This document shows positions 3,246 to 36,186 of a stretch of 64,000 nt of DNA, piece after piece. Every line of letters begins with the position of its first letter. Positions within the stretch are counted from its first letter, which is position 1. The translations under genes were made by a program, and so were the position numbers. The stretch is from Acidobacteriota bacterium (GTDB lineage: Bacteria; Acidobacteriota; Vicinamibacteria; Marinacidobacterales; Marinacidobacteraceae): positions 1 to 64,000 of the forward strand of contig JAJEFG010000032.1 of assembly GCA_022820545.1 (NCBI GenBank), written 5' to 3'. A model generated the notes under the pieces. It made no database searches, was not told the DNA's origin, and saw only the letters and a program-made list of their open reading frames with translations.

Positions 3246-3668
3246 CTAGACGGTCTTCCACGGATCGATGACCGACACGCCGCACTCCCGAAAGTCCTCG
3301 GCGTCGCGTGTCGCGAGGGCCGCGCCGTGGGTCTTGGCGATTGCGGCGATCTGACAATCCAGAGAACCAATGGGGTTTCCGGCTTCGCGGCGCCGCGCAC
3401 CGATCTCGCTGAATGCGGCGGCGGCAGCGCGGTCGAACGCCAGGATGCGCCCCGTGAAGGTTGCGCGGAAGAACTCATCGGCCATTGAGGCCAAGTGGCG
3501 TCGTCGTCTCCCGGCCGGCAGGATGGCGATGCCGTAGCGGAGTTCGCCTTCGCTGACGGAAGTGGTGAAGAGTTCGCCGTACGGCTGGAGCCGCGTCCAC
3601 GTGGCAACCCGAAGATCCGGCTCAGGGCGCATCAACTCCGAAATCACGTTCGTGTCAACGATGGTCAC
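3246..3668 (-). CDS. PIN-domain toxin, FitB/VapC type
   Basis: A 140-residue PIN-domain ribonuclease toxin. The N-terminus TIVDTNVISELMRPEP is the FitB hallmark, with the first catalytic D in VDTN. SEGELRYGI supplies the glutamate, and DCQIAAIAKTHGAALATRDAEDF supplies the last two acidic positions. I chose the GTG at 3668; it overlaps the stop of the upstream antitoxin gene by four bases, a standard translational-coupling overlap. The track ORF running to 4586 is an extension through the antitoxin and a repeat and is discarded. Confidence 0.92.
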   Translation of the reverse strand: MTIVDTNVISELMRPEPDLRVATWTRLQPYGELFTTSVSEGELRYGIAILPAGRRRRHLASMADEFFRATFTGRILAFDRAAAAAFSEIGARRREAGNPIGSLDCQIAAIAKTHGAALATRDAEDFRECGVSVIDPWKTV

Positions 3669-3925
3669 GAGAAGTCCTCGGAGCTGAAGTCCGGCGGGTC
3701 GCGCATCGGTTCGCGCGGTGGCAGTTCGAGTTCCACTCCGCCGATGGGGTCGACGATCCGCCGGATCGCGTCGTAGAGGTTCTCTGGCGGGCCGGGATCC
3801 GTCTCCACGGCACTCTTCAGAATGGTTCGCGCCTCGGCCTCCATGGATCGCCCGTTCTCCGCCGCGCGCACACGTAGCCGCTTCTTGGTGGTCTCGTCGA
3901 GGTTGCGGATCGAAAGGCTGGCCAC
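3665..3925 (-). CDS. Ribbon-helix-helix antitoxin, FitA type
   Basis: An 86-residue antitoxin for the PIN toxin whose gene it overlaps by 4 bp. MASLSIRNLDETTKKRLRVRA followed by GRSMEAEARTIL is the ribbon-helix-helix signature of FitA. The C-terminal tail is acidic and proline-rich (PREPMRDPPDFSSEDFS), consistent with a disordered toxin-binding tail. Translation starts at GTG with AGGAG seven bases upstream. A short perfect palindrome lies 33 bp upstream and could be its operator. Confidence 0.9.
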   Translation of the reverse strand: MASLSIRNLDETTKKRLRVRAAENGRSMEAEARTILKSAVETDPGPPENLYDAIRRIVDPIGGVELELPPREPMRDPPDFSSEDFS

Positions 3926-33215: not shown

Positions 33216-34289
33216 ATGGTCCGCCCCTTCCGCTGGGACTCCGAGCGCAAGGTCCTCCACCTCCTGGACCAGCGCCGGCTCCCCTCCGAGGAGACGTGGA
33301 TCGAGTGCGCCGAAGCGGACCAGGTTGGGGACGCGATCCGCGAGATGGTCGTTCGCGGGGCCCCGGCCATCGGCATCGCGGCCGCGTACGCGCTGGTGCT
33401 GGGGTTCGTCCGTGACGCCGGGGACTCGCCCGCGGCCCGGTTCGAGGACCTGGCCGCCGGACTGCTGAATACCCGGCCCACCGCCGTCAACCTGGGGGCC
33501 GCTATCGCGCGCATGCGCACCCGGCTGGAAGCGCTCTCCAGCGCTTCGGCCGCGGAACGGGTTCGCGGACTGGAGGCGGAGGCGGACCGGATCGCCGCCG
33601 AGGACCTGCAGGCGAACCGCCGCCTTGGCGCGCTCGGCGCCGGCCTGCTGCCTCGCGAGGGGCCAGCCCGCGTCCTGACCCACTGCAACGCGGGAAGCCT
33701 CGCCACCTCGGGCTACGGGACCGCCCTCGGCGTCGTCCGGGCGCTGGTCGAGTCGGGCCGCGAGGTGCAGGTATTTGCCCCCGAAACCCGGCCCTATCTG
33801 CAGGGCGCCCGGCTCACCGCCTGGGAACTGATGGCGGACCAAATCCCGGTCACCCTCGTCACCGACGGAATGGTTGGTTCCCTGCTCGCCGGCGGGGACA
33901 TGGACGCCGTCATCGTGGGCGCCGATCGGATCGCGGCGAACGGGGATTCCGCCAACAAGATCGGCACCTACCAGGCTGCGGTCCTCGCGAAGGAACACGG
34001 CGTGCCGTTCCTGGTGGCCGCGCCCTTTTCGAGCGTGGATCTCGAGACGCCCACCGGTGCGGAGATCCCCATCGAGGAACGCCAGCCCGAGGAAATCGTG
34101 GAGATCGCCGGAAGGCGGATCGCCCCGGAGGGCGTTCCCGTCTGGAATCCGGCCTTCGACGTGACTCCGGCCCGCTACATCACCGCGATCGTCACGGAAC
34201 GGGGCGTCGCCCGCCCGCCTTTCGCGGCATCCCTCGCCCGTTTTGCCGCGACTCCCGGAAACGCGCCAGCAGATATGACAGCGATTTGA
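33216..34289 (+). CDS. mtnA: S-methyl-5-thioribose-1-phosphate isomerase
   Basis: A 357-residue isomerase that converts 5-methylthioribose 1-phosphate to 5-methylthioribulose 1-phosphate in methylthioadenosine salvage. The catalytic cysteine lies in LTHCNAGSLATSGYGTALGV and the catalytic aspartate in VIVGADRIAANGDSANKIGTY. VVRGAPAIGIAAAYALVLG is the substrate-phosphate region. Length and motifs are those of true MtnA and not of eIF2B. It lies on the same strand and 1.9 kb upstream of the RuBisCO-like/cupin gene, with the antitoxin-nuclease fusion and tsaD between them. Confidence 0.95.
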   Translation: MVRPFRWDSERKVLHLLDQRRLPSEETWIECAEADQVGDAIREMVVRGAPAIGIAAAYALVLGFVRDAGDSPAARFEDLAAGLLNTRPTAVNLGAAIARMRTRLEALSSASAAERVRGLEAEADRIAAEDLQANRRLGALGAGLLPREGPARVLTHCNAGSLATSGYGTALGVVRALVESGREVQVFAPETRPYLQGARLTAWELMADQIPVTLVTDGMVGSLLAGGDMDAVIVGADRIAANGDSANKIGTYQAAVLAKEHGVPFLVAAPFSSVDLETPTGAEIPIEERQPEEIVEIAGRRIAPEGVPVWNPAFDVTPARYITAIVTERGVARPPFAASLARFAATPGNAPADMTAI

Positions 34290-34305
34290 TAACGTATCGA
34301 TGTCA
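34276..34305. promoter_or_regulatory. Operator-like inverted repeat before the antitoxin-nuclease fusion
   Basis: TGACAGCGAT-ttgataacgt-ATCGATGTCA has 10-bp arms with a single mismatch and a 10-bp spacer (one helical turn between half-sites). It overlaps the mtnA stop codon and ends 21 bp before the ATG of the fusion gene. Its geometry fits a ribbon-helix-helix operator. It also covers the upstream ATG at 34300, arguing that the real start is at 34327. Confidence 0.55.
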
Positions 34306-34326
34306 AACCGCTGCGGAGGTGCTGTC

Positions 34327-35034
34327 ATGGGTAACCTTACGATCCGAAACTTGGCCGATTCTGTAATTCAGGCGCTCAAGGCGGAGGCCAGGGCGAACGA
34401 ACGTTCGATGGAAGCCGAGGCTCGCCGCGCGCTGACCGAGCGATTCGACCGGATCCAGCGGATGGTTCGGCTTCGGGAGCGCACCGATGCGCTTTCGCGG
34501 GCCACCGAAGGGATTCCACAAACCGATAGCGTCCTGCTGCTGCGCGAAGACCGAACGAGCCTGAAGGAGAAGTCAGTTGCCGAACTCCTCGCTCTCCAAG
34601 TCGCGGTCTTGAAGAAGCTGCGCGCGCGCAGAGTGCTGAGAACGGAGAACAATCCGACCGGCGATCTTGCGGAGTACCTGTTTTGCGCCGCCTACGGGTG
34701 GGAACATGAACCCGGGAAAGCGCTTGATGCGACAGACGCGGATGGCAAGCGGTACCAGATCAAGGGACGCCGCCTCGCTCGCCGCGATTCCTCTCGGCAG
34801 CTTTCGGCAATCCGCGATCTCGACGGGTTCGACATCCTTGCCGCGGTGCTATTCGACGAAAACTACCGCGTGGTGCGGGCGGCCCTGATCCCGGTCGGCG
34901 TCGTTCGCGACCATTCCAAGTACGCCGAGCACACAAACAGTCACACGTTCCTTCTGCAGGACCAGGTGTGGGACGCGCCCGATGTCATCGACGCCACGGA
35001 TTGTCTCCGGGTGCAGGAAGCGCTCTATTCTTGA
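34327..35034 (+). CDS. FitA-type antitoxin fused to a PD-(D/E)XK-like domain
   Basis: A 235-residue protein. Residues 1-45 (MGNLTIRNLADSVIQALKAE, SMEAEARRAL) are a FitA/Arc ribbon-helix-helix domain, and residues 60-76 (ATEGIPQTDSVLLLREDR) match the toxin-binding tail of such antitoxins, so the antitoxin is complete. Residues 85-235 are not PIN-like. They contain E116 (GDLAEYLF), D134 and Q144-x-K146 (KALDATDADGKRYQIKGRR), the order expected of a restriction-endonuclease fold, followed by DGFDILAAVLFDENYRVV. GGAGGT precedes the ATG at 34327. There is no separate toxin gene. Nuclease activity is inferred, not shown. Confidence 0.7.
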   Translation: MGNLTIRNLADSVIQALKAEARANERSMEAEARRALTERFDRIQRMVRLRERTDALSRATEGIPQTDSVLLLREDRTSLKEKSVAELLALQVAVLKKLRARRVLRTENNPTGDLAEYLFCAAYGWEHEPGKALDATDADGKRYQIKGRRLARRDSSRQLSAIRDLDGFDILAAVLFDENYRVVRAALIPVGVVRDHSKYAEHTNSHTFLLQDQVWDAPDVIDATDCLRVQEALYS

Positions 35035-35121
35035 TTCGGGATCCAGGATGCCAGCGTACCGTCGTTGCACGTTGAGGCAGCAGGGGTACGACCGGCTACT
35101 CGACGCTGCTCCATAACTGCC

Positions 35122-36186
35122 ATGCTCATCCTCGGCATCGAGACCTCCTGCGACGAGACCTCGGCGGCAGTGGTCCAGGACGGCCGGCGCATCCTGTCGA
35201 ACGTCGTCTCGTCCCAGGTTGCCCAGCACGCGCAGTTCGGAGGGGTGGTGCCCGAGATCGCTTCCCGGCAGCACCTCCTCAACCTGTCGCCGGTGGTGCG
35301 GCAAGCGCTGAGCGAGGCCGAGGTTGGCCTCGATGACATCGAGGCGGTGGCGGTCACGAACGGTCCGGGCCTCATCGGAGCCCTGCTTGCCGGCGTCTCC
35401 TTCGCCAAGGCGTTTGCCTTCGCGCGCGGGATTCCGCTCGTGGGCGTGGACCACATCGAAGGGCACATCCGGGCTTGCTACCTCGAAGGCGGCGAGGTTC
35501 CCCATCCCGCGCTCGCGCTCGTGGTCTCCGGGGGGCACACGAACCTCTTCCTGCTCGAGGCCGAGAGTTCCTACCGGTTGCTCGGCAAGACCCGCGACGA
35601 CGCGGCGGGGGAGGCCTACGACAAGCTCGCCAAGCGGCTCGGGCTCGGGTACCCGGGGGGTCCGATCCTCGACCGGTTGGCGCAGCGCGGCAATGCGAGC
35701 CGCCACCTCTTCTCGCTCCCGCACTTTTCGGACGGGGCAAAGCTGGACTTCAGTTTCTCGGGCCTCAAGACCCAGGTTCTCCGGCTCATCGAGCACGAGG
35801 GCATCGAGCCGCTCGCCGAGGGCGACGATCCTTTCGCCCGCGAAGACCTCCGCGACCTCGCCGCCAGCTTCCAGTCGGCGGTCGTCCGCGCCCTGCGCCG
35901 GTCGGTGGACCGGGCGCTTCGCATGTTCGAGGTGAAGGCCGTGCTGTTGACCGGCGGGGTCGCCGCCAACTCGGCCCTGCGGGCCAACTTCCAGACGCTC
36001 GGCGAGGAGCGCGGCCTGCCGGTCTTCTATCCCACCATCGCCCTCTCCACCGACAACGCCGCCATGATCGCGGCGGCCGGTCACCTGGCGCTTCTCCGCG
36101 GCGAGACCGCGGGCCCCGATCTCACCGCGGATACCGAACTGCGGCTCGGCGAGACCGGGCCACGCCGGTCCCGGCGCCACCGCTGA
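35122..36186 (+). CDS. tsaD: tRNA threonylcarbamoyladenosine synthase subunit TsaD
   Basis: A 354-residue ASKHA-fold enzyme that transfers the threonylcarbamoyl group to A37 of ANN-decoding tRNAs. LILGIETSCDETSAAVV is the N-terminal signature, VDHIEGHIRA holds the metal-binding histidine pair, and VVSGGHTNLFL and LTGGVAANSALRANF bind nucleotide. Normal full length. Only 2 bp separate its stop from the GTG of the RuBisCO-like/cupin gene, so the two are co-transcribed. The track ORF from 35065 adds an unlikely leader. Confidence 0.96.
   Translation: MLILGIETSCDETSAAVVQDGRRILSNVVSSQVAQHAQFGGVVPEIASRQHLLNLSPVVRQALSEAEVGLDDIEAVAVTNGPGLIGALLAGVSFAKAFAFARGIPLVGVDHIEGHIRACYLEGGEVPHPALALVVSGGHTNLFLLEAESSYRLLGKTRDDAAGEAYDKLAKRLGLGYPGGPILDRLAQRGNASRHLFSLPHFSDGAKLDFSFSGLKTQVLRLIEHEGIEPLAEGDDPFAREDLRDLAASFQSAVVRALRRSVDRALRMFEVKAVLLTGGVAANSALRANFQTLGEERGLPVFYPTIALSTDNAAMIAAAGHLALLRGETAGPDLTADTELRLGETGPRRSRRHR

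Follow-up and report, generated by a model that had tools for sequence, protein, structure and literature searches.

One gene in the 64,000-nucleotide stretch of DNA from an uncultured acidobacterial lineage analysed here (the window) encodes a near-complete FitA antitoxin joined in frame to a domain that is almost certainly a BisI-family restriction endonuclease. We hold with moderate confidence, as a joint reading of the evidence, that a methylation-dependent restriction enzyme has taken over the promoter and autorepressor of a toxin-antitoxin system. The features of the locus are collected in Table 1. A Shine-Dalgarno sequence, GGAGG, lies at 34315-34319, 7 nt 5' of the ATG at 34327; an alternative in-frame ATG at 34300 would yield a 244-residue protein but does not sit at this Shine-Dalgarno sequence. 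No canonical in-frame start codon occurs between residues 47 and 95 of the fusion, so the nuclease is not readily produced unless at least some of the antitoxin is produced with it. A 235-residue fusion is also encoded by a second genome of the same genus (MPMW01000001, locus L023; hereafter G001, with the window genome as G000). Because the junction in G001 is identical and the gene lies between the same two neighbours, an assembly artefact is excluded and the antitoxin-nuclease fusion is confirmed as genuine, the known fusion sequences being two in number and both from metagenome-assembled genomes, one of which is 66% complete.

Table 1. Features of the fusion locus, in window coordinates.
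Feature	Position	Strand	Basis
Left neighbour mtnA (S-methyl-5-thioribose-1-phosphate isomerase)	33216..34289	+	NCBIfam TIGR00512, E 2e-130
Candidate FitA-family operator position	34286..34300	.	TTGATA-ACG-TATCGA in the window; upstream comparison
FitA-BisI fusion gene	34327..35034	+	235 aa plus stop; open frame with Shine-Dalgarno; full-length orthologue in L023, 79% identical
Near-complete FitA antitoxin, residues 1-76	34327..34554	+	Pfam PF22513, E 3.3e-13; 92-93% identity with the standalone FitA proteins of G003 and G007
Tail, residues 60-76, TEGIPQTDSVLLLREDR, PIN-toxin-binding segment in FitAB	34504..34554	+	FitA alignment
Predicted complete BisI-family endonuclease domain, residues 77-235	34555..35031	+	PADLOC, PDB and Foldseek matches
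Predicted catalytic E116 (NhoI Glu50)	34672..34674	+	NhoI alignment; invariant in 10 BisI sequences
Predicted catalytic D134 of the 'PD' motif (NhoI Asp70)	34726..34728	+	NhoI alignment; invariant in 10 BisI sequences
Predicted catalytic Q144-I-K146 (NhoI QVK, Gln80/Lys82; Eco15I QIK)	34756..34764	+	Alignment; K invariant, Q replaced by E in 2 of 10
H202-T203, internal-methyl pocket motif (H/R)(V/I/T/M) (NhoI H139-V140)	34930..34935	+	Alignment
Remnant similar to the PIN-toxin gene at its 3' end	35062..35121	+	41/60 identical to the 3' end of the G007 PIN gene
Right neighbour tsaD	35122..36186	+	NCBIfam TIGR03723, E 7.8e-121

The assignment of the C-terminal half is drawn from sequence matches and from a structural model. 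Residues 78-229 match the PADLOC model mREase_II (PDLC03212, BisI-type, 'Type II methyl-directed restriction enzyme') with an E value of 2.7e-51, and the PDB sequence matches are Eco15I (8q5m, E 1.9e-28) and NhoI (8q5n, E 4.3e-21), both of the BisI family. No Pfam model reaches this domain in the window protein, and its relatives give a weak match to DUF6998 that lies under the Pfam cut-off. A Foldseek search with an AlphaFold2 model, in which the BisI core is usable and the remainder weak (mean pLDDT 66, with better values in the nuclease core), returned chains of NhoI and Eco15I as its top 12 matches (target TM 0.64-0.80; E 5.7e-15 for NhoI), followed by DpnI and PvuII; a PvuII-like fold as in NhoI is thus predicted. 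The initial annotation had recognised a PD-(D/E)XK nuclease core in E116, D134 and Q144-x-K146, and its proposal is borne out by the NhoI-like fold, by an alignment in which these positions coincide with the catalytic residues of NhoI (numbering of catalytic and pocket residues from PMC11347163), and by one of the window protein with nine BisI relatives, in which the glutamate, aspartate and lysine are invariant. Residues that contact or line the methyl pockets are nearly all kept as well: R148, Q158, S160, R163 and H202-T203 are equivalent to R84, Q96, S98, R101 and H139-V140 of NhoI, the last pair falling within the pocket motif defined in PMC11347163, and N108 aligns with NhoI N42. Among the contacts checked, NhoI S65 is changed to P129 and S137 to A200, both of which are water-mediated and concern the outer base pair; the G001 fusion has L in place of the pocket residue Q158. 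BisI-family enzymes cut DNA only where the sequence GCNGC bears several 5-methylcytosines (PMC11347163), and from the conserved residues we infer that the fusion product is a modification-dependent restriction enzyme with this predicted activity. The gene is an orphan in that no methyltransferase gene lies beside it, its neighbours being mtnA and tsaD.

The intact FitA-type antitoxin described by the initial annotation is likewise present, with its boundary at residue 76 and its toxin-binding tail kept. Residues 3-38 match FitA-like_RHH (PF22513), a ribbon-helix-helix (RHH) domain, beyond the Pfam gathering cut-off, and the fused portion comprises 76 residues as compared with 78 in the standalone FitA proteins of the genus. 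Every residue of the RHH domain and tail that is invariant across the FitA alignment is retained in the fused FitA halves; those in the tail (P64, Q65, D67, S68, L71, R73, D75 and R76) are the same in fused and unfused proteins alike. Structural claims are not made for this half, which is poorly modelled by AlphaFold2 (as a monomer, from five sequences). A FitA-like RHH antitoxin is present in the fusion, but the adjacent PIN toxin is absent and BisI stands in its position. An ordinary FitA-PIN pair is found elsewhere in the window, at 3249-3925 on the minus strand (FitA 86 aa, PIN 141 aa). That antitoxin and nuclease are both intact in one chain had suggested a single-chain toxin-antitoxin, in which the FitA half inhibits the nuclease in cis. 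This proposal fails on several counts and is extremely improbable: the FitA tail inhibits PIN RNases, whose fold is unrelated to that of BisI, BisI enzymes cut methylated GCNGC only and are not general toxins that need an antitoxin in cis, and BisI-type enzymes have been expressed in E. coli without an antitoxin and have standalone relatives that lack one.

The sequences upstream of the gene bear on how it may be regulated. In Neisseria, FitA binds DNA upstream of fitAB, and FitB tethers FitA dimers, which stabilises the pair (PMC3920265). A site resembling TGCTAGCA, with at most one mismatch, lies 5' of 13 of 25 FitA loci in this and related genomes, as compared with 0.8 expected in shuffled sequence; the corresponding sequences are TGCTAGCAT at -41 in G003 and G007 and TGCTAACAT at -40 in the G001 fusion. 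By analogy with the Neisseria system and from these upstream comparisons, the FitA half is most likely a built-in autorepressor that would act through a predicted operator just upstream of the gene. The main weakness of this reading is that the site has drifted in the window, where TGATAACGT is found within a different near-palindrome and differs from TGCTAGCA by three mismatches. No sigma-70-like promoter was found upstream of the window fusion, and a perfect 8-bp inverted repeat around the fusion start (ATGACAGC/GCTGTCAT) was discounted, since chance could yield such a repeat at that search size. The upstream regions of more distant FitA loci (L017-L022) bear a clear paired operator, GGTATCA-N(3-6)-TGATACC, unlike the TGCTAGCA type, and the class of operator seems to vary with the FitA subfamily.

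The DNA-binding capacity of the antitoxin had also led the initial annotation to envisage a nuclease targeted by its RHH domain. In this reading the antitoxin would direct or strengthen cutting at particular sites besides the methylated one. In its favour, the RHH domain binds DNA as a dimer and BisI works as a dimer, which makes their symmetries compatible, and the DpnI group has effector-like sensor domains; such targeting is not needed, however, as BisI enzymes have their own sequence and methyl recognition. The extra domain of Eco15I, moreover, gives no detectable specificity, and the only RHH site that can be predicted is the upstream region of the gene itself, so that we regard RHH guidance as very unlikely.

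A further account is that of a neutral scar: BisI landed in frame by chance and uses the FitA start, and the FitA half is simply carried along, with some aid to solubility or dimerisation at best. It is in keeping with the operator drift in the window and with the standalone BisI relatives, which need no such domain, but is countered by the pattern of selection between the fusions of G000 and G001. Both halves are under purifying selection, and the FitA half is more constrained (ω 0.18) than the BisI half (ω 0.45); all invariant RHH and tail residues have been kept through about as much divergence as tsaD shows. We consider a purely neutral origin of this kind quite unlikely. A tree of mtnA and tsaD does not place G000 and G001 as sister species, and synonymous divergence (dS) between the two genomes is 0.32 ± 0.06 for BisI, 0.43 ± 0.05 for tsaD and 0.61 ± 0.07 for mtnA. 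Since the BisI value is about equal to, or somewhat below, those of the flanking genes, the fusion is, as judged from these sequences, not very recent; the same values leave a recent transfer between G000 and G001 unsupported.

The history of the locus can be followed in eight genomes of the genus, in which the mtnA-tsaD site exists in three states. It is empty, with mtnA and tsaD almost adjacent, in G002, G004, G005 and G006; it holds a gene for a 78-residue FitA, overlapped by a 250-codon gene for a PIN-domain toxin, in G003 and G007; and it holds the FitA-BisI fusion in G000 and G001. The PIN toxin of G003 and G007 (L026:6234-6983 and L025:1748-2497) has an unusual extension of ~110 aa with a weak, sub-threshold match to DUF3775. 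In both fusions the join falls at the same base, and this identity of the junction rules out independent fusion in two species. The join sits 32 residues N-terminal of an NNPTGD motif, and the start codon of most relatives lies ~31-36 residues before that motif, so the join coincides with the point at which BisI enzymes that stand alone naturally start. Beyond the BisI stop codon, both fusions retain a segment that resembles the last 60 bases of the G007 PIN gene (35/60 identical in G001), a likeness beyond that of all 20,000 shuffles; the segment is missing from the empty sites of G004 and G006. Chance insertion in an empty site would leave no PIN remnant, and displacement of the PIN toxin body by BisI is thus the most likely course. 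Taken alone, the remnant may also be compatible with the opposite order, in which PIN replaced BisI. FitA-PIN is the usual arrangement (PMC2701414), and a FitA relative in G008, from the same family of genomes, is likewise followed by PIN, both of which favour the order in which BisI replaced PIN. The PIN partner in G008 measures ~138 aa.

The two occupied states suggest a different benefit of the fusion. The fusion and FitA-PIN are alternative alleles of one site in sister species, and it can be proposed that, after a swap of FitA-PIN for FitA-BisI by recombination in mtnA and tsaD, the fused antitoxin neutralised leftover PIN in trans and the cell survived it, with BisI as defence cargo. Chromosomal antitoxins are documented to act in anti-addiction (PMC10305079), and the PIN-binding residues of the tail are unchanged in both fusions despite diverged synonymous sites. 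Against this, the window genome holds no close relative of the PIN toxin at E <= 0.001, retention of the tail could reflect folding or repressor assembly, and the ω of the tail is imprecise, the segment being short. We judge this protective role to be unlikely. Similarly doubtful is a combined form, in which a toxin-antitoxin system was converted to a restriction system in one step: the toxin would be swapped for a modification-dependent nuclease, and the fused antitoxin would both autorepress the gene and neutralise the displaced toxin allele, which would let the exchange survive post-segregational killing.

Capture of the promoter and autorepressor, the reading that we favour, would proceed as follows. 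A BisI-type gene for a 5-methylcytosine-dependent enzyme would have entered a chromosomal FitA-PIN operon, displaced the PIN body and become fused in frame to the C-terminal end of the antitoxin, an entry and replacement step that is reconstructed from the eight-genome comparison of the locus. The FitA half, which supplies the start signals, is difficult to dispense with, and its RHH dimer would bind the predicted operator. As BisI enzymes dimerise via the helix that directly follows the position of the join, the BisI dimer may take on the bridging role of the PIN-toxin dimer in FitAB. Enzyme levels would stay low until bound protein was diluted or lost, at which point the gene would be derepressed. 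Judging from the family and its conserved residues, the dimer would cleave multiply methylated or hydroxymethylated GCNGC in incoming DNA and spare unmodified DNA.

Such an enzyme would threaten its host if a resident C5-cytosine methyltransferase methylated GCNGC. The window genome encodes two of these, in restriction-modification loci on other contigs (L066 and L067) and neither near the fusion gene; one adjoins a SacI-like endonuclease and the other adjoins DUF4928. Their specificities can at best be guessed, and freedom from self-cutting is assumed here. The SacI site, GAGCTC, does not contain GCNGC, so the SacI-like methyltransferase should not endanger the host.

Few genomes of the phylum carry BisI-type genes (6 of 396, by a BisI profile). 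The nearest relatives of the nuclease half are standalone copies: one, 72% identical, lies in another genome of the class, and others occur in contigs assigned to viruses (45-69%) and on plasmids of Alphaproteobacteria (~50-62%); these relatives carry no antitoxin. Comparison of homologues with and without the N-terminal domain, as proposed in the initial annotation, yields the G001 fusion on one side and standalone BisI proteins on the other. The other BisI domains examined begin near their own N-terminus or bear a C-terminal extension (G345); the G345 protein (L055:4065-5129) has an extension of ~190 aa that is without a Pfam match. No third antitoxin-BisI fusion was returned by comparison of the fusion protein with 198 relatives, 396 phylum genomes, plasmids, phages and viral contigs, or by a BisI profile search of 396 phylum and 193 class genomes, and a FitA scan of viral contigs yielded nothing. 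The G+C content of the BisI half is 0.62, as compared with 0.71 for mtnA and tsaD, and that of the FitA half is likewise lower.

Parallels are often drawn between toxin-antitoxin and restriction systems, both viewed as addictive and mobile modules. With the before, after and empty states preserved in one genus, a toxin-antitoxin system appears to turn into a restriction locus at a fixed chromosomal site, which offers a directly testable route. It also suggests that recruitment of an antitoxin as repressor is one way in which a restriction enzyme can become self-regulating. No description of an antitoxin borrowed in this way was found among the papers searched.

Comparison with known systems places the two halves of the fusion in separate families. 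The C-terminal domain is homologous to NhoI and Eco15I over its full length (33-40% identical residues when the folds are compared) and shares their E/D/QxK residues, pocket motif and predicted fold, in agreement with the Foldseek result, in which these enzymes are the nearest structures; however, the window protein bears a FitA domain at its N-terminus, whereas NhoI is a single-domain enzyme and the extra domain of Eco15I is C-terminal. BisI-like proteins with an N-terminal extension before the BisI-like C-domain are known, and an antitoxin is not mentioned in the passage that describes them. With the VapBC-type FitAB system of Neisseria gonorrhoeae and the FitA-PIN pairs of G003 and G007, the fusion shares the RHH domain, the toxin-binding tail and the position of an operator-like site upstream, and with the latter two it also shares its genomic locus. 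It differs from all of these in that PIN is absent and a DNA nuclease, whose fold is unrelated, is covalently attached to the antitoxin. The modification-dependent endonucleases of the DpnI type that contain a winged helix similarly combine a DNA-binding domain and a modification-dependent nuclease in one chain, but in those enzymes the extra domain serves as a sensor of the modified base (PMC11037411), whereas in the fusion it is a transcriptional antitoxin.
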